Positions 43,044 to 51,601 of a stretch of DNA of 64,000 bases are shown here, in pieces. A program made the position numbers and the translations under genes. Under the pieces are notes generated by a model. That model made no database searches. It saw nothing but the letters and a program-made list of their open reading frames with translations, and was not told where the DNA came from. How positions within the stretch are numbered: the stretch's first letter is position 1; each line of letters starts with the position of its first letter. This DNA comes from Opitutus sp. GAS368 (GTDB lineage Bacteria; Verrucomicrobiota; Verrucomicrobiia; Opitutales; Opitutaceae): positions 2,512,291-2,576,290 of the forward strand of contig NZ_LT629735.1 of the NCBI RefSeq assembly GCF_900104925.1. The letters run 5' to 3'.

Positions 43044-43128
43044 GGTGGGCGTCGGTTTCCACACCGACGCCTGTCGCCGATATGGAAATCGGCGACCACC
43101 TTCGGCGGGGTCAGCGACCCCGCCCTAC
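43044..43128. repeat. C-family element, copy 2, plus a GGCGGGGTC hairpin
   Basis: 43044-43100: GGTGGGCGTCGGTTTCCACA CCGACGCC and GTCGCCGATATGGAAATCGG CGACCACC-type, inverse of the OGG copy. 43104-43124: hairpin GGCGGGGTC/GACCCCGCC, then CCTACC, whose CTA is the TAG stop of the sensor-kinase gene. It lies between convergent genes. Confidence 0.85.
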
Positions 43129-44966
43129 CTGAGCGACCCGAACGAGATCTGGATGTCGGTGCCCTTGATGCCGGGGCCGGCCTGGAGGGTGCCGCCGTGG
43201 AGGCGGAGGATTTCCCGGGCGAGGAAGACGGAGAGGCGGCCCTCGTTGGGCGTCGAGCCGGGGGCCGGCAGGGGCAGGATGCCATCGAGTTCGAGGCGCT
43301 TGCCCTCGATGGTGACGATGGCGGTGCGGAGGCCGTCGGTGCCGGCGGTGCGCAGGGTGAGCAGCAGGTCCTTGGTGCCCTCGTCGGGCCGGTTGGCGCC
43401 AAGGGCCTCGAAGATGGCGTTGAAGGCGAAGCGCACCAGCACGGGGTCGACCGAGAAGACGAGCTGTTCCTCGGAAAAGCGGGTGGTGATGCCGCGCGCC
43501 ACGGCAAGCTCGGTGAGCAGGGCGTTGAGGTCGACCGACTGGGCGACCGGCGAGGCGATCTCGCCGAGGACGGTGGCGTGCTCGGCCAGGCGCTGGAGCT
43601 TCTGCACCTCGGTGGCGAGGGAGACCTCGGAGGCGATCGCGGCGGCGCCGTCGGCCGGGGGAGTCGATCCCGTCGGCATGGGCGGACGGCTCTGGCTGCG
43701 GGCGAGGAGCTGGGCGAAGGTGACGAGGGAGACGAGCGGGTTGGACAGCTCGTGGCTGAGGGTGAGGCCGAGGTTCTTGAAGAGCGCGCGGCGGTGCTGC
43801 TCGTGCTCGGCGCGGATGCGCTCGATCTCGGGCGCGGATTCTTCCCACTGGACCCAGACGCCGTCGATCTCGGGGGCGGGACCGGCGGTGACGCGGAAAC
43901 GGTGCGGCGGGCGCGCCGGCTGGGTGATGGCCTTCTGGGCGTGCAGGGCTTCGCTGGCGACGGCGCGGACCTCGACCGGCAGGTCCATCGAGGCGATCTC
44001 GGCGCGGGAGAGGACGCGGGAGCCGGAGAGGTATTTGGCGCGGAGGGCGGTGGCGGTCTCGGCGCGCGCGAGTTCCTCGAGCTGGACGGAGCGCTCGAGG
44101 CAGCGCTCGAGCAGGCGGCCGTGGAGGACGGCGCGGAACTTGTCGGACTCGCGGTAGGAGGCGCCGTCGGCGCGCGGTCCGAGGGCCATCCAGCCCAGGA
44201 GCTGGCCGGAGGCGTGCAGCGGGATCAGGAGCTTGGCGCCCCAGCTGTGCAGCTGCTGGCGGATGGGGGCATCAATGGCCGGATCCTCGGGGCCGGCCCA
44301 TTGGGCGACATCGAGGGCGGCGGGATGCTCCTCCAGCCAGAGCGAGAGCGGGTGGCCGGCGTCGAGCCGGTGCGCCTCGTCGTCGGACACGAAGGCGTCA
44401 AACTTGCGGAAGAAAAACAGGACCTTGCCGGACTTCAGGATGTAGCGGCCGGCGCGGCGGAACTCGTCGAGCAGGCGCGTGCGGTCGCCGAGGTGGGTGA
44501 GGGCGCTCTCGAGGAAGTCCCACGACTCGACCGGTTCGCCGCCGGCCGGGGCGGGCGCGGGTTCACGCATGGCGAAGGGCGCGGCGCTGGCCCGGGAGCG
44601 CTCGAGGGTGGTCTGCAGCTGGGAATTCTTGTCGGCGATCTCCTCGAGGAGGCTCACGGACTCGGCGAGGCGGGAGCGGCTTTCGTCGTAGCTGAGGAAG
44701 AGGCGGGCGGCGCGGTTCTGGCGGGCCTGCTCGTAGGGCAGGCTGTGCGGCTGGCCGACGAGGATGACGAGGGTGCCCGTGCCGCAGGCGAGGCGGGTGC
44801 GCGGGTCGTTGATGTCGGTGATCCAGACGCGCGAGCCGGGGCGGAGAAGATCACGCTGCAGGTCGGCGGGCCGGGCGAAGACAGCGGGTTCGCGCGGGTG
44901 GAGCTGGTTCTTCCATGCGGCTTCGAGACCGGGATCCGGGGTGGTCAGGATAAGGGAGGCGGGCAT
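43125..44966 (-). CDS. GAF-containing sensor kinase-like protein with degenerate ATPase domain
   Basis: 613 residues, soluble. An N-terminal receiver-like domain without clear phosphoryl Asp pocket (1-110), a coiled linker, a GAF-like region (about 155-320) and a histidine-kinase dimerisation helix (LTLSHELSNPLVSLVTFAQL, His about 410). The ATPase domain is abnormal: the N box reads RFAFNAIFEALGANRP and no DxGxG (G1) or GxGLGL (G2) motif is visible. It may accept or sense rather than make phosphate. It overlaps the membrane kinase gene by 22 nt. Confidence 0.82.
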   Translation of the reverse strand: MPASLILTTPDPGLEAAWKNQLHPREPAVFARPADLQRDLLRPGSRVWITDINDPRTRLACGTGTLVILVGQPHSLPYEQARQNRAARLFLSYDESRSRLAESVSLLEEIADKNSQLQTTLERSRASAAPFAMREPAPAPAGGEPVESWDFLESALTHLGDRTRLLDEFRRAGRYILKSGKVLFFFRKFDAFVSDDEAHRLDAGHPLSLWLEEHPAALDVAQWAGPEDPAIDAPIRQQLHSWGAKLLIPLHASGQLLGWMALGPRADGASYRESDKFRAVLHGRLLERCLERSVQLEELARAETATALRAKYLSGSRVLSRAEIASMDLPVEVRAVASEALHAQKAITQPARPPHRFRVTAGPAPEIDGVWVQWEESAPEIERIRAEHEQHRRALFKNLGLTLSHELSNPLVSLVTFAQLLARSQSRPPMPTGSTPPADGAAAIASEVSLATEVQKLQRLAEHATVLGEIASPVAQSVDLNALLTELAVARGITTRFSEEQLVFSVDPVLVRFAFNAIFEALGANRPDEGTKDLLLTLRTAGTDGLRTAIVTIEGKRLELDGILPLPAPGSTPNEGRLSVFLAREILRLHGGTLQAGPGIKGTDIQISFGSLR

Positions 44967-46966
44967 GGAAACGTGATGCGGAAAGTAGCGCCGGGGCGTT
45001 CGTTGTCAGGCACAATGATGGTGGCCTTGTGTTCGTGCAAGATATCCGCGCACACCGCCAGGCCCAGGCCCATGCCCTTGGTTTTCGTGGAGACAAATGG
45101 GTGGAAGAGCCTGGCGCGCTGGTCCAGCGGGATGCCGGGGCCGTTGTCGCTGATCTCGAGGATGACGCTGCCATTGGGGGAATTCCGGGTGCGGAGGTCC
45201 ACGCGGCGGTCGGTTTCCTGGCTTTCGAGGGCCTGAAAGGCGTTGATCAGAAGATTGATGAGGACCTGGCGGATGGCGCTCGCGTCGGCCCAGATGGTGT
45301 CCGTCGCGGCGTTGTAGGTGCTGGTCAGGGAGACGCGGGCCTCGGCGGCGCGGGTGAGCATGAGCTCGACGGTCTCGCGGGCGACGGCGTGGAGGGCGAT
45401 GCGCTCCATCTGGTGCCGGCGGGGGTTGGAGAGGTCGAGGAGCTGCTGGGTGAGGCTGTCGATGCGGTCCACCTCGGCGGGGATGAGGACGTTGAAGCGG
45501 CGGCGGAACTCCGGGTCGTCGAAGCGGGTGGGCAGGAGGTGGGCGAAGGTCTTGATCGAGACGAGCGGGTTGCGGATCTCGTGGGCCAGGCTGGCGCCGA
45601 GCAGGCCGATGGTCGCGAGCTGCTCGGACTGACGCGCCTGCATCGTGAGGCGGGAGCGCGCGAGGATGTTGTCCATGAACTCGGCGATCTCCTGGACCTG
45701 CTGCACCTCGGGGTAGGTGAAGGGCCGGTGATTGACCTTGGTGCCGAGGACGAGGACCAGCGACGGCGTGGTGCTGCCCCGCGGGGCGGTGACGGCCAGG
45801 CCGAGGTCGAACTCGGTGAGGAAGTGGCGGAGGTCGACGAGGCCCGGCTCGGCGCGCTGGCGCTGGAGGCTCTCGGGGGTGGTCCAGCCGGTCCGGCAGA
45901 GCGAAGCGTGGGCCGGGCGTTCTTTGCTGAACTCGAGGTCGCCGGCGGCGTAGACCTCGCCGCTGTCGAAGAGCAGGCGGGCGTAGCTGGCCTGGCCCCA
46001 GGTCCGCAGCAGGTTCTCAAAGGCGGTGACGAGTTGGTCGGGGTTGGGCTCGCTGCGCGCGAGGTCGGTCATGGTGCGGCGGATGGCGGCGATATTGTGC
46101 TCGGGGCCGAGGCGGAACCACTCGCGGGTCTTGCGCTCGAGCAGGAAGGCGAGGGAGCTGCACACGGCGATGCTCAGGATCAGATCGACCGGTGGGAGAA
46201 GGATCAGACCGAAGAGCCACCAACCACCGAATATGCCGCTACACAATATCGTGACGAGGACCAGGCGTTGCACTACAGAAAGAAACACCTGTCTTGCGTC
46301 GAAGATGCGGTGGACGGTTACCGCCCAAGCCGTGAGGGCGTAGAAAGTGACGACCGTGATCGGGCTGAGCCGGGAGAGAAAGCGCAGGTTGAGATAGGTG
46401 CCGCCGGCGTTGATGGCGATGGCGAGCAGGCAGCTGAGGGCGCTGTTGAAGGTCAGAAACTGCAGTTCGATGCGGCGCACTCCCTGCTCCCGGCGAAGCA
46501 GGCGGTAGGATTGGATCACCAGAAAGGCATACAGACCCACACTGACAATGGTGTAGATGAGATAGCCCACGCCGCGCCGCGGGTTCTCCGGAGTGGATGT
46601 GCTGGGAATGAAGAGCTCCGTGAAGCAGAGCACGGCCAGCACGGCGCCGATCAGGAACCAAGGCCACGAGCGCCGCAAAGCGGCCTTGGCTTGGCCCTCG
46701 GCGGTCAGGATTGACTGCATGAACAGCCAGATGATCCAAGGGAAGAAGGCACCAGCGGCCGAGGTCGCGCGCAGCCACGGCACCGGGTTGATCACCGGGG
46801 TGCTTTCGCCCGCCCTCAAGGCGAAAACGAAGAACAGCAGCCACGCGGCCGAGGTCAGGGAAGCGAGCGCAAAAACCTGGTTGGTGAAGCGGCGGGAGTT
46901 GATCCAGAGAACGCTCGCCCCGATGGCGAGGGTCAGCAGTGCAGCGATGAAAATCAGGGAGGACAT
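44945..46966 (-). CDS. Membrane sensor histidine kinase (7TM-GAF-HK)
   Basis: 673 residues. Eight or so N-terminal spans (1-290), then a GAF-like domain and a complete kinase core: H box GASLAHEIRNPLVSIKTFAH, N box INLLINAFQALESQ, G1 DNGPGIP and G2 KGMGLGLAV. The arrangement resembles PrsK-type kinases of exosortase systems, but no exosortase genes are seen here. Its ATG shares bases with the TAA of the ketosynthase-like gene (TAATG), indicating coupling. Confidence 0.88.
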   Translation of the reverse strand: MSSLIFIAALLTLAIGASVLWINSRRFTNQVFALASLTSAAWLLFFVFALRAGESTPVINPVPWLRATSAAGAFFPWIIWLFMQSILTAEGQAKAALRRSWPWFLIGAVLAVLCFTELFIPSTSTPENPRRGVGYLIYTIVSVGLYAFLVIQSYRLLRREQGVRRIELQFLTFNSALSCLLAIAINAGGTYLNLRFLSRLSPITVVTFYALTAWAVTVHRIFDARQVFLSVVQRLVLVTILCSGIFGGWWLFGLILLPPVDLILSIAVCSSLAFLLERKTREWFRLGPEHNIAAIRRTMTDLARSEPNPDQLVTAFENLLRTWGQASYARLLFDSGEVYAAGDLEFSKERPAHASLCRTGWTTPESLQRQRAEPGLVDLRHFLTEFDLGLAVTAPRGSTTPSLVLVLGTKVNHRPFTYPEVQQVQEIAEFMDNILARSRLTMQARQSEQLATIGLLGASLAHEIRNPLVSIKTFAHLLPTRFDDPEFRRRFNVLIPAEVDRIDSLTQQLLDLSNPRRHQMERIALHAVARETVELMLTRAAEARVSLTSTYNAATDTIWADASAIRQVLINLLINAFQALESQETDRRVDLRTRNSPNGSVILEISDNGPGIPLDQRARLFHPFVSTKTKGMGLGLAVCADILHEHKATIIVPDNERPGATFRITFPCPPPLS

Positions 46967-48165
46967 TATCTTTCGACCACGAGCGCGGCATTGCTGCCCG
47001 AGAGGCCGTGGCTGTTGACCACGGCGACCCGCACCGGCAGACGGCGGGGCTGGTTGGACAGATTCAGGGGGCAGGCCGGATCGGGACTTTCCCAGTTCAC
47101 GGTCGGCGGGATCAGGCCCTGCTGCAGGCTCAGCGCCGTGCTGGCTGCCTGGATCGGGCCTGACGCGCCGAGGGCGGTGCCGATGGCCCCCTTGATCGAG
47201 CTGACCGGGATTTCTGCCAGCCGGCTGCCATACAGGTGCGCCATGGCGCGGGACTCATTGGCATCGATCACGCGATGGCCGGTGCCCCAGGCATTGATGA
47301 AGTTCACTTCGTCCGAGCGACGCTGGGCATTGGCGAGGGCCTGCCGGACGCATTCCACCAGGCCCATGGCCGCCTGCCCGTCCTGGTCGTTGGCGTAGCT
47401 GTAACCGGTGATCCAAGCCACGGCGGGTCGCGGGCTGTGTTCGGGTTCAAGCACGAAGATGCAGGCGCCCTCGCCAAGCACACCGGTGGAACGCCACAGG
47501 TCGAAGGGCCGGCAGGCTTTTTCCGGGGTCTCGTTGGTGGCGGGGCTGAGTTCCGAGGCGTTGAACCCGAGCATGGGGTAATAGGAGAGCGGAGATTCGC
47601 TGCCTCCACAAAGCGCGAGGTCGGTCTGGCCACTGGCGACGAGGTCGGCGGCCTGGCCCACGGCGTCGAGGCCCGAACAGCAAGAGGTCTGCATCGTCAG
47701 CATCCTGGCGGGGATCCCGAGCCATTCGACGATCTTCCCGGCCACATTCGCGACCGAGGCCTCATACATGATGCTGCCGGGCGTGTAGCGCACCCCCTTT
47801 TTCATAACCAGCTCCATCCCTCGCCCGATCTTGTCGAAGTCCATGATGGACGTGCCGGTCAGTACCACCGGATTGTGCCTCGCCAGATCAGCGGGAGTAA
47901 GGCCGGCATCCTTCAACGCCAGTATCGCCGCCACCAGGCTGAACTGGGTGTGGCGTGAAAGGCGCCGGGGATTTTCCTCAGGCGCATACTTCTTCAAGTC
48001 AAAGTCCGGGATCTCCGCCCCGATGAACTGTCCGGCCTCCGGGTCGAAGCGGGTGATGGCGCGCACGCGGCTGACGGATTCGTTGATGCCGCGGAAGAAA
48101 TCCTCACGGCCGATGCCTGCGGGTGTGACCGGGCCGATGCCGGTGATTTTAACGCGGCGACGCAT
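46966..48165 (-). CDS. Beta-ketoacyl synthase-like protein lacking both catalytic histidines
   Basis: 399 residues with the thiolase fold of FabF-type enzymes (start RRVKITGIGPVTPAGIGRED). The active Cys is present (MQTSCCSGLDAVGQA). The two catalytic His are not: NFINAWGTGHRVIDAN has Trp where FabF has His in NAHGT, and SIKGAIGTALGASG has Thr where FabF has His in GHxxG, although the Lys is kept. Chain elongation by the normal route is therefore unlikely; acyl transfer, decarboxylation-free condensation or a binding role remain possible. No ACP or other fatty-acid genes adjoin. It is the first gene before two sensor kinases. Confidence 0.85.
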   Translation of the reverse strand: MRRRVKITGIGPVTPAGIGREDFFRGINESVSRVRAITRFDPEAGQFIGAEIPDFDLKKYAPEENPRRLSRHTQFSLVAAILALKDAGLTPADLARHNPVVLTGTSIMDFDKIGRGMELVMKKGVRYTPGSIMYEASVANVAGKIVEWLGIPARMLTMQTSCCSGLDAVGQAADLVASGQTDLALCGGSESPLSYYPMLGFNASELSPATNETPEKACRPFDLWRSTGVLGEGACIFVLEPEHSPRPAVAWITGYSYANDQDGQAAMGLVECVRQALANAQRRSDEVNFINAWGTGHRVIDANESRAMAHLYGSRLAEIPVSSIKGAIGTALGASGPIQAASTALSLQQGLIPPTVNWESPDPACPLNLSNQPRRLPVRVAVVNSHGLSGSNAALVVER

Positions 48166-48380: not shown

Positions 48381-49265
48381 ATGACTGCCCCGGAATTCGA
48401 AGCCCGTCTCATGGCCTGGGCTCTCACCTTGCCCGATCTCGAGGCGCTCGTGCAGATCGGTTCGCGCGTGCAGCCGGGTGCGGTGGTGGATGCTTGGTCC
48501 GACTGGGATTATCAGCTGATCACCCGCGACCCGGGGCGCTACCATAACCACGACTGGCCGAGGCAGATTGCCCCGTGCTGGTCGGTGCATTTGGAACGCA
48601 CCCCACGAGGCGTAATGAAGCTGAGCGCGGTCTTTGCGGGTGGTTGGGAGGTGGACTTCGTGCTGTTGCCGGCCTGGCAGATGAAGCTGGCCTGTCGGGC
48701 GATGCGGCACCCAGGCGCTCAAGGGTGGTTTCCGCAGGCGCTGCTCCGAGGGGTGCATAATCTGCGACTCGTGGCCGGCCCCGGCCACCGTGTGGTGCTC
48801 GGCGGTCCGGCGTGGGAGCGGCGCTATGCCGCGCTGGCGATTCCGTGGCCGGTCCCGGGGTTCATCGTCGAGGATTTCAGATACCACACGGCGGCTTTCT
48901 GGCGACATGCCGTCTGGGTGGCCAAGAAAATCCTACGCGGTGAGCTGCACGCGGCGTTGCGTTGGTCGCACGTCGAGCTGCGCGAGCATACCTATGCCCT
49001 TCTGGCGGAGGAGGCCCGGCTGGCCGGACGCACCCCCCGGCCTGAGGCCCGCAAGGCGGAGCAATGGCTCGATGACACACGCTTGCGACAGACGGCCCTC
49101 TCGACCGGGCCGGAACAAGCCCAGTTGGCGCGGGCATTGCTGGCCGAGATGACTCTTTTTCGCGAGGTCACCCAAAGTATCGCGACCCGGCGGGAGTGGC
49201 CGGTGCCGGATTACGTGGCGGTTGAAACCTGGTTGCGGACCGAGCTCACGAAACTGGCCGGCTGA
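48381..49265 (+). CDS. Nucleotidyltransferase-like protein (ANT(6)/streptomycin adenylyltransferase type)
   Basis: 294 residues. The pattern IGSRVQPGAVVDAWSDWDYQ matches the GS-x(n)-D-x-D nucleotidyltransferase motif of aminoglycoside 6-adenylyltransferases, and a further acid residue lies in GGWEVDFVLLP. The C-terminal half is helical (WVAKKILRGELHAALRWSHV). Family resemblance is moderate; an antibiotic substrate is not implied. The 215-nt gap before it (48166-48380) shows no gene or clear repeat. Confidence 0.75.
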   Translation: MTAPEFEARLMAWALTLPDLEALVQIGSRVQPGAVVDAWSDWDYQLITRDPGRYHNHDWPRQIAPCWSVHLERTPRGVMKLSAVFAGGWEVDFVLLPAWQMKLACRAMRHPGAQGWFPQALLRGVHNLRLVAGPGHRVVLGGPAWERRYAALAIPWPVPGFIVEDFRYHTAAFWRHAVWVAKKILRGELHAALRWSHVELREHTYALLAEEARLAGRTPRPEARKAEQWLDDTRLRQTALSTGPEQAQLARALLAEMTLFREVTQSIATRREWPVPDYVAVETWLRTELTKLAG

Positions 49266-49276
49266 CGCGGAGGGCG

Positions 49277-50419
49277 TCAGTTCGAGGCGAGCGGGAAATC
49301 CAGCGTGAAGACCGTGCCGCCGCCGGGACGGGTTTCGACCCTCATCTCCGCGTGGTGCGCAACGGCGATGTGGCGGCAGATGGTCATGCCGAGACCCGTG
49401 CCGTGGGGCTTGGTGGACTCAATCGGCTTCTTGAGGATGACCGCCATGACGTCGGGCGGCAGCCCGCTGCCGTTGTCCGCGATCGCGAGCACGGCCCGGC
49501 CGGGGTTTTTCCGGACGGAGAGCATCACGCGGGTCGCGCCGGCTTCGAGGGCATTTTTGATGAGATTCTGGAGCACGCGCATTATCTCGTAGCGGACGCC
49601 GGTGATGGCGACGTCGGCGTCGCCCTCGATCTCGATGCGCGGGGAATCGAAAAACAGCACGGCCCGGGTCTCCTCGGCGGCGTCGCGCAACGCGAAGGTG
49701 TCGCTCTTGGCGACGTGCTTCGCGCTTTGGCGCCACGACTCGGCCAGGTGGAGGCAGAAGGAGGAACAGTGCTCGAGCCGCTGGGCGTAGTGGACGATGC
49801 GGTCGACCGACGCGGAACTGCCGGGCAGGCTCTGCGCCTCGTCGAGCAGCATGTTCGTGTAGCCGATGGTCACGACGAGCGGGTTGCAGATGTCATGCAC
49901 CATCTCCGCGGCGGCCTGGCCGTAACCGACCTGCATCTGGTTCTTCTTCTGCTCGGTCTTCACCGACTCATACATGCCCTCGAGCTGACGGAAGAGCGAA
50001 GCGCGCTTCTTGCGCTCCAGCGCCTGGGCGGCATGGCGGCGCACGGCGGCCTGCAGCACGTCCACGTCAAACGGTTTCTTGAGATATTCGTTGGCCCCGA
50101 GGCTGATCGCGGCCTGGGCCGAGGCGAGGGCGCCGTAGCCGGTCATCATGATCACGGCCACATCGCTGTCGATGCGTCGCAGCTCTTCCAGACCTTGGAT
50201 GCCGTTCTTCTGTGGCATGCGGATGTCCATGACCACGACGGCGAACGACTCCTTGCGGATGAGGTCGAGGCCGCGATCCACGCGATCCGCCGTCTGCACC
50301 GAGAACTCGTCCTGCAGCAGGTAGCTCATGCTCTCGCGCGGGCCGAGTTCGTCGTCAATGACGAGAACCTTCGGGCGGCCCGGGATCGTGGCAGGGGGGG
50401 TTGGCGTGGTGTCGAGCAT
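49277..50419 (-). CDS. Hybrid response regulator-histidine kinase (REC-HK)
   Basis: 380 residues. N-terminal receiver domain: acidic pair in VLVIDDELGP, phosphoryl Asp in VVVMDIRMPQKNG, Thr in VIMMTGYGA and Lys in LKKPFD. Kinase domain: H box AEMVHDICNPLVVTIGYTNM, N box LQNLIKNALEAG, G1 IADNGSGLP, G2 HGTGLGMTI. All motifs look intact. This REC-first order suggests that the kinase is itself controlled by phosphorylation, possibly by the sensor kinases encoded nearby. Confidence 0.9.
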   Translation of the reverse strand: MLDTTPTPPATIPGRPKVLVIDDELGPRESMSYLLQDEFSVQTADRVDRGLDLIRKESFAVVVMDIRMPQKNGIQGLEELRRIDSDVAVIMMTGYGALASAQAAISLGANEYLKKPFDVDVLQAAVRRHAAQALERKKRASLFRQLEGMYESVKTEQKKNQMQVGYGQAAAEMVHDICNPLVVTIGYTNMLLDEAQSLPGSSASVDRIVHYAQRLEHCSSFCLHLAESWRQSAKHVAKSDTFALRDAAEETRAVLFFDSPRIEIEGDADVAITGVRYEIMRVLQNLIKNALEAGATRVMLSVRKNPGRAVLAIADNGSGLPPDVMAVILKKPIESTKPHGTGLGMTICRHIAVAHHAEMRVETRPGGGTVFTLDFPLASN

Positions 50420-50520: not shown

Positions 50521-51504
50521 TTATTTTGCGGCGACGCCGCGGGAGAACAGCTCGGTGATGACGTCCTCAAGGGGCACGTCCTGGATGGTGATGTCGTCCA
50601 CCGCGCCCAGGCTCAGGATCTGCTGACAGACCTCTGTGACCTTCTCGCTGGGCACGTGCAGGAGGATCTCGCCGTCCTCGCCGACCGCGGCCGTGCCGTG
50701 GGCGGGCTTCCAGTCCGCCGGGAACGCCTCGCTCCGGGGCTTGAACTTGATGATACGCTGCCGCGCCCCGGCCCCGGTGATCCGGTCGAGGTCGCCGTCG
50801 TAGATCTTCTTGCCGTGGTCGATGACGATCACGCGCGCACAGAGCGACGAGATGTCGGCCATGTAATGGCTCGTCAGCAGGATGGTCGTCTTCGTGCGCC
50901 GGTTGTAGTCGCGCAGGAACTCGCGGACCTTCTTCTGCGACACGACGTCGAGGCCGATGGTGGGTTCGTCGAGGAAGAGCACGCGTGGCCGGTGGAGCAG
51001 GGCGGCGATGAGCTCCATCTTCATGCGCTCGCCAAGGGAAAGTTCGCGGACCATGATATTGAGCTTCGACCCGACGTCGAGCAGCGCCACCAGCTCGTCG
51101 AGCGTGGCCTTGAACTGGTCCGGCGGCAGGCCGTAGATGGCGCGGAGCAGGTGGAACGACTCGATGGCGGGCAGGTCCCACCAGAGCTGGTTCTTCTGGC
51201 CGAGCACGAGGGCGAAAAGCCGGCGGTAGGCGTTCTCGCGCTTGGTCGGATCGAACCCTGCCACCCGCGCCGTGCCGCTGGTCGGGTAGATGAGGCCGGA
51301 AAGCATCTTGAGCGTGGTGGTCTTGCCGGCGCCGTTGGGTCCGAGGAAGCCGACCAGTTCGCCCTCGGCGATGGTGAAGCTGACGTTGTCGGCCGCGCGG
51401 GTCTCCTCGAATTCGCGGTGGAACAGCCCCTTCACGCCACCCCAGAAACCGGGTTGCTTCTTGTAGGTGCGGAAGACCCGGGTGAGGTTCTCGACTTCAA
51501 TCAT
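50521..51504 (-). CDS. ABC transporter ATP-binding protein (COG4586-type)
   Basis: 327 residues from ATG 51504. Walker A GPNGAGKTTTLKM, signature LSLGERMKMEL, Walker B VLFLDEPTIGLDV, H loop SHYMAD. The N-terminal RVFRTYKKQPGFWGGVKGLF matches the COG4586 subgroup, whose permeases (COG4587 and COG3694) are normally adjacent. No permease is found on either side here. Confidence 0.92.
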   Translation of the reverse strand: MIEVENLTRVFRTYKKQPGFWGGVKGLFHREFEETRAADNVSFTIAEGELVGFLGPNGAGKTTTLKMLSGLIYPTSGTARVAGFDPTKRENAYRRLFALVLGQKNQLWWDLPAIESFHLLRAIYGLPPDQFKATLDELVALLDVGSKLNIMVRELSLGERMKMELIAALLHRPRVLFLDEPTIGLDVVSQKKVREFLRDYNRRTKTTILLTSHYMADISSLCARVIVIDHGKKIYDGDLDRITGAGARQRIIKFKPRSEAFPADWKPAHGTAAVGEDGEILLHVPSEKVTEVCQQILSLGAVDDITIQDVPLEDVITELFSRGVAAK

Positions 51505-51601
51505 GAGAGCCGCCGACTGAACACGGAAAAAAGGGAAAGGCAACCCGCCTTCACCGGGCCGGCCGCACCCTGCATTTAGTCCTGTAATGGTAAGGCTTTT
51601 G

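Follow-up and report, generated by a model that had tools for sequence, protein, structure and literature searches.

An Opitutaceae kinase operon with a conserved FabF paralogue that lacks both catalytic histidines

Gene content and conservation of the operon

The DNA analyzed here is a 64,000-nucleotide stretch of the Opitutus sp. GAS368 genome (contig NZ_LT629735.1, positions 2,512,291 to 2,576,290 of the forward strand), hereafter called the window. Its minus strand carries, in this order, genes for a FabF-like ketosynthase (KS), a membrane histidine kinase (HK1) and a second, kinase-like protein (HK2). A model that saw only the sequence had singled out these three genes as a possible sensory unit, and direct reading of the sequence confirmed the coordinates, the reading frames, the TAATG junction and the 22-nucleotide overlap given in that original prediction. 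We found the unit to be larger: a receiver-containing kinase (RRHK) and a nucleotidyltransferase (AdT) belong to it as well, so that the full unit comprises a REC kinase (RRHK), the KS, a seven-transmembrane (7TM) kinase (HK1), a degenerate GAF kinase (HK2) and a nucleotidyltransferase (AdT). What is established, at the level of sequence, is that a conserved and selected KS without the condensation residues is coupled to these kinases. The features in the window are the following:

46966..48165, minus strand: KS, FabF-fold protein of 399 amino acids (Pfam ketoacyl-synt, N- and C-terminal domains)
44945..46966, minus strand: HK1, membrane histidine kinase of 673 amino acids (Pfam HisKA and HATPase_c)
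43125..44966, minus strand: HK2, soluble kinase-like protein of 613 amino acids (no Pfam match at the default threshold)
49277..50419, minus strand: RRHK, receiver, HisKA and HATPase_c domains (Pfam)
48381..49265, plus strand: AdT, AadS/streptomycin-adenylyltransferase-like nucleotidyltransferase (Pfam PF04439)
46966..46966, minus strand: KS/HK1 stop/start overlap of 1 nucleotide, TAATG (read directly)
44945..44966, minus strand: HK1/HK2 overlap of 22 nucleotides (read directly)

KS orthologues with 67 to 91% identity were present in nine other genomes of the same genus, and HK1 and HK2 followed KS at every locus of the genus where the contig allowed it. A restriction of the system to this genus was rejected by its family-wide occurrence. 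Across 252 Opitutaceae genomes, KS was found in 81, representing 21 of 49 genera (E <= 1e-80), and HK2 in 93. Both genes occurred in 76 genomes, sharing a contig in 74, and in all 74 they lay on the same strand, separated by about 2 kb, which is the length of the single gene HK1. The KS-HK-HK arrangement, on whose conservation in relatives the prediction had been staked beforehand, thus recurred in 74/74 genomes. Searches for HK2 outside the family (E <= 1e-20) gave no match in 273 sampled genomes of the order or in 289 of the phylum. A DNA pattern for the tryptophan (W) motif of KS matched operon KSs only; the pattern is strict and also missed certain true members, among them the window copy. 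Among matches of less than 40% identity, those inspected proved to be ordinary FabFs carrying both catalytic histidines. One same-genus genome without the operon (G019) has a stretch of 31 residues matching the end of HK2 (C30:199280-199372), a possible remnant of loss.

Gene order was read in 40 loci chosen across Opitutaceae. RRHK, KS, HK1, HK2 and AdT were consecutive on one strand in 30 of these; among the other ten, two had RRHK about 1.5 kb upstream, two had AdT with RRHK-like genes only downstream, four were cut by contig ends and two lacked KS. RRHK is the first gene of the operon and AdT the last in most genera, and in the genus of the window AdT is inverted and sits between RRHK and KS. 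Reading frames overlapped at 37 of 39 KS/HK1 junctions and 43 of 44 HK1/HK2 junctions examined. The operon contains no second KS gene as a partner and no DNA-binding output gene, and no exporter, acyl carrier protein (ACP) or coenzyme A (CoA)-handling enzyme is encoded within the conserved unit. The earlier observation that no ACP gene is nearby held up: Pfam detected no PP-binding (ACP) domain in the window, the nearest lying about 64 kb from KS, and a motif search found no ACP-like gene beside the operon in the 40 loci, its single regular-expression match reading like a chance frame. The ordinary KS genes of the same genome are separate from the operon, and two of them adjoin an ACP gene (C1:3013689 and C1:3827073). 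A region beyond the window (G000 C1:3265261-3279502), with several PP-binding domains encoded in long open frames, looks like a modular nonribosomal peptide synthetase or polyketide synthase cluster. Next to RRHK lies an ABC transporter ATPase gene (window 50521-51543), which several genomes of the genus, as well as G023, also have close to their operon.

Ancestry and active site of the ketosynthase

By both sequence and fold, KAS II is the closest relative of the operon KS. An AlphaFold2 model of the window KS (pLDDT 92.4) had FabF 1j3n as its best PDB match (TM score of 0.95), and its score against the TIGR03150 fabF model was 261.5 bits, below the NCBIfam equivalog cut-off of 493.75. In a tree with 42 other KS sequences, those of the operon separated as a single clade (SH-aLRT 100), with mean identity among them down to about 52%. 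Omega values of KS pairs ranged from 0.04 to 0.14 (NG86; some dS values were saturated); judged by these ratios, purifying selection on the operon KS is strong. Two KS copies (G044 C45:23342-24508 and G053 C34:94902-96101) each contain one in-frame stop, and G044 also has no HK2 match; decay or assembly error may explain this.

KS residues were mapped by alignment to solved FabFs and then to Escherichia coli FabF and 38 other FabFs. As originally predicted, the window copy retains Cys163 and Lys335 of E. coli FabF as Cys162 and Lys325 and has Trp293 and Thr330 in place of the catalytic histidines His303 and His340. The codons concerned, assigned by alignment, are as follows:

47680..47682, minus strand: Cys162, KS nucleophile position (Cys in 45/45 of the family)
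47287..47289, minus strand: Trp293, replacing catalytic His303 (Trp in 44/45, never His)
47275..47277, minus strand: His297, at the position of FabF Thr307 (His in 45/45)
47191..47193, minus strand: Lys325, equivalent to FabF Lys335 (44/44)
47176..47178, minus strand: Thr330, replacing catalytic His340 (Asn, Thr, Ser or Ala in the family, never His)
47008..47010, minus strand: His386, at the position of FabF Phe398 (His in 44/44)

Both catalytic histidines were present in all 38 comparison FabFs and lost in all 45 operon KSs, and in line with the prediction neither an orthologue with normal histidines (45 operon KSs) nor one with an ACP-like gene beside it (40 loci) was encountered. Conservation of the two substitutions themselves, which had been proposed as a check, held for the tryptophan, the single exception at position 303 being a cysteine, and did not hold for the threonine, as only the absence of histidine is conserved at position 340 (45 checked). 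The corresponding histidines of FabB, H298 and H333, have been reported to be indispensable for decarboxylation (PMC2649909). Both histidines are present in each of the four further KS homologues checked from the genome of the window.

In addition to the cysteine and lysine positions, Asp265, Asp311, Glu314 and Asn404 (FabF numbering) were invariant in operon KSs wherever the sequence was complete; Asp311 and Glu314 are Asp301 and Glu304 in the window copy. Asp265 and Asn404 have roles as a gating pair in FabF (PMC7138838). Other positions have changed: Gln replaces Glu349 in 43 of 44 operon KSs, Phe400 of the GFGG gate is Leu, Val, Ile or Met, and loop 2 has lost five residues, with the columns of the hinge prolines Pro272/273 deleted in 45/45. 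Two new histidines are invariant, one at FabF position 307, a Thr in FabFs, and one at position 398, which is mostly Phe in FabFs. A KAS III-type Cys-His-Asn triad is matched by Asn at the third position in 26 of 45 operon KSs, but the second position is Trp. At the positions through which FabF contacts ACP (PMC7138838), the operon KSs are mostly basic where FabF has Arg68 and Lys69, and they do not keep Lys65, Lys128, Arg206, Phe132 or the hydrophobic patch. Because the condensation histidines, the gate phenylalanine and the loop hinge are lost and the docking surface is only partial, the operon KS should not act as a normal elongating synthase. Retention of Cys, Lys and Asp265/Asn404 is as expected of a pocket that is still used for binding. 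Since the ACP-docking surface is changed, acyl-ACP is a doubtful ligand; acyl-CoA or another molecule is possible.

Kinases, nucleotidyltransferase and loci without the ketosynthase

HK1 consists of about seven transmembrane segments, a GAF-like middle domain, HisKA and HATPase_c, and all of its kinase motifs are present and conserved (H462, N575, DxGxG and GxGLGL). Its description as a 7TM-GAF kinase agrees with the transmembrane segments; the Pfam GAF model gave no match, and a relationship of the middle domain with the HK2 GAF domain emerged from profile comparison, at 94.5% probability. HisKA_7TM (PF16927) gave sub-threshold matches in 2 of 10 diverse HK1 members and none in the window copy. 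Six loci (L172, L174, L190, L191, L194 and L195) have a second 7TM kinase adjoining the operon, in five of them on the opposite strand; it resembles HK1, scoring 168 to 528 bits against the HK1 model, and may be a paralogous input.

HK2, which had been called kinase-like, keeps its phospho-acceptor histidine: the DHp region has the invariant His405-Glu406. The ATPase domain is degenerate, with the D and G boxes absent. Within the HK2 family, GAF was detected in 27 of 41 members and HisKA weakly in 12 of 41, and the structure model of HK2 matches kinase regions such as those of ZraS and RetS. Assignment of the HK2 N-terminal domain to degenerate receivers was rejected: its model shows a beta-alpha pattern, but the probability by profile comparison was only 1.2%. 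RRHK, by comparison of 44 sequences, has an intact receiver site (conserved D22, D23, D65, T93 and K115) and an intact kinase part (conserved H175 and ATPase motifs). AdT keeps its nucleotidyltransferase motifs, GS...SDxD and Asp92, in 47 sequences; G27, D41, D43 and D92 are invariant and S28 is nearly so.

Two genomes, G024 and G119, contain an RRHK-HK1-HK2 locus without KS and AdT. Neither is among the 81 genomes with an operon KS, and a search of both genomes yielded no AdT at any other place. In the kinase tree they group as a single clade (SH-aLRT 100), which a midpoint root places inside the KS-bearing diversity (support for the placement, 85), and the simplest reading is one joint loss of KS and AdT. 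If so, the kinases can work without these two proteins, and their persistence in one clade fits KS as an input and not as a core part of the relay. Downstream of the KS-less operon in G119 lies a response-regulator-like open frame (L175:11546-12235; judged by its first residues only), a possible output gene of that lineage.

Candidate roles of the ketosynthase and comparison with known systems

The loss of both condensation histidines and the overlap with sensor kinase genes suggest an enzyme that has turned into a signalling part. Our preferred interpretation, which we consider plausible without being confident of it, is a five-gene phosphorelay operon of Opitutaceae in which a FabF paralogue unable to condense provides a ligand- or acyl-binding input to HK1. 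The KS pocket would bind an acyl group or another small ligand, either reversibly or as a thioester at Cys162, and the loaded or empty state of KS, relayed by protein contact, would set how actively HK1 autophosphorylates at the membrane. HK2 could act as an accessory protein, heterodimer partner or relay, since only its phospho-acceptor histidine is kept. RRHK, itself equipped with an intact kinase domain, would finally take up the phosphate on its receiver domain, and AdT could add a second layer, perhaps by modifying one of the operon proteins or the ligand. Because the operon has no DNA-binding output gene, the final target would lie elsewhere in the genome. A narrower version, in which the KS fold is the dedicated ligand sensor of the membrane phosphorelay, loaded at Cys162, non-condensing and reporting its acylation state to the 7TM kinase, is one that we put forward only tentatively.

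Several observations weigh against this interpretation. The strict retention of Cys162 and Lys325 suits a catalyst as well as a sensor, and so do the two new invariant histidines (FabF 307 and 398), which the alignment places close to the pocket. The idea of KS as a sensory or ligand-binding partner, as first proposed, is consistent with the sequence evidence; its acyl-ACP form is weakened and made doubtful by the loss of much of the docking surface and by the shortening of loop 2, a contact site for ACP in FabF. Correlations of distance matrices were 0.48 to 0.70 between KS and the kinases and 0.94 between HK1 and HK2, and tight KS-kinase coevolution is not established because the former are lower. 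The shared absence of KS and AdT in one clade, a single loss event and no proof that they act together, could mean that they are an enzymatic pair.

Such a pair would suit a different explanation: KS would still be an active enzyme, a non-decarboxylating acyltransferase that produces a small signal or alters one, AdT possibly taking part, and the 7TM part of HK1 would read this signal after its export or within the membrane. Strict conservation of Cys and Lys, and an AdT gene that travels with KS, leave room for catalysis, and we regard this explanation as a strong competitor, only somewhat less likely than the preferred one. By analogy with RpfF/RpfC, CqsA/CqsS and LqsA/LqsS, it would place a synthase beside its kinase. 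It accounts for the conservation of Cys162, Lys325, Asp301 and Glu304, gives the invariant His297 and His386 a potential role as alternative base, and makes use both of AdT, a second enzyme gene with intact nucleotidyltransferase motifs that is absent together with KS in one clade, and of the 7TM input domain of HK1. However, the conserved unit has no exporter, ACP or CoA-handling enzyme, the overlap of the KS and kinase frames fits a fixed-ratio protein complex at least equally well, and the product is a postulate.

The lost histidines, gate phenylalanine and loop 2, the change of Glu349 to Gln and the translational coupling would also be expected if KS were a pure pseudoenzyme serving as a ligand-free structural scaffold for the kinases. 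A scaffold would have no need, however, for fixed Cys162 (45/45), Lys325 (44/44), Asp301, Glu304 and His297 while mean identity falls to about 52%, and because Cys and Lys are so strictly kept we consider this explanation unlikely. An ordinary or decaying FabF that merely sits beside kinase genes would agree with the FabF fold and the clear FabF kinship; set against colocation in 74/74 genomes, purifying selection, residue loss in every orthologue and the separate normal KS genes of the genome, this idea is refuted in practice and hardly credible.

Bacteria sense acyl metabolites through transcription factors or through receptors for secreted fatty-acid signals. We found no published account of a KS-kinase unit in the open-access full-text literature, although accounts may exist elsewhere; phosphorelays, GAF kinases, 7TM kinases and altered KS paralogues are each known, and their combination was not found in that literature. 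A non-condensing KS with its acylation residues is fixed beside three kinases and a nucleotidyltransferase in at least 21 genera. Depending on the role of this KS, the arrangement would either link lipid metabolism with phosphorelays in a new way or constitute a new system for signal production; were KS indeed the sensor, the operon would be a sensory unit of a new kind, one through which a whole bacterial family ties phosphotransfer to acyl metabolism.

Relative to FabF/KAS II (TIGR03150; Thermus thermophilus 1j3n), the operon KS shares the fold (TM score of 0.95), the active-site Cys and Lys, Asp265/Asn404 and about 35% identity. It differs in having no catalytic histidine, in the changes of Glu349 to Gln and of Phe400 to Leu or Val, in a loop 2 shorter by five residues, in docking residues that are only partly kept and in its location outside any fatty-acid cluster. 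The non-elongating ketosynthases (KS0) of trans-AT polyketide synthases keep the Cys and have lost the His, as has the operon KS, and this combination makes acylation without condensation chemically plausible. In contrast to KS0, the operon KS is a free-standing 399-residue protein in a kinase operon and not an assembly-line domain, and both of its histidines are gone, with Trp at the first position.

FabF paralogues with altered active sites have been described in anammox and other bacteria (PMC2649909). In several of these paralogues, for example, Kuste3606 and Kuste3348, both catalytic histidines are replaced; the Cys is missing from them too, and that study treated them as members of lipid gene clusters. 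The operon KS resembles them in the replacement of both histidines, whereas its Cys is invariant and its partners are kinases. Chain-length factors (KS-beta), such as that of actinorhodin (1tqy_B), are likewise catalytically changed KS folds; they lack the Cys and pair with a KS, while the operon KS has an invariant Cys and no partner KS. Among signalling systems, RetS/GacS offers a parallel in that the HK2 model resembles the kinase region of RetS, which would make HK2 a noncanonical accessory kinase beside an active one, although its architecture and partners are different. In RpfF/RpfC, CqsA/CqsS and LqsA/LqsS, a signal synthase is encoded beside a sensor kinase, and RpfF acts on fatty acyl substrates. 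These pairs share with the Opitutaceae operon an enzyme-fold gene beside a membrane kinase; they use other enzyme folds, and the operon described here combines its KS with three kinases and a nucleotidyltransferase.

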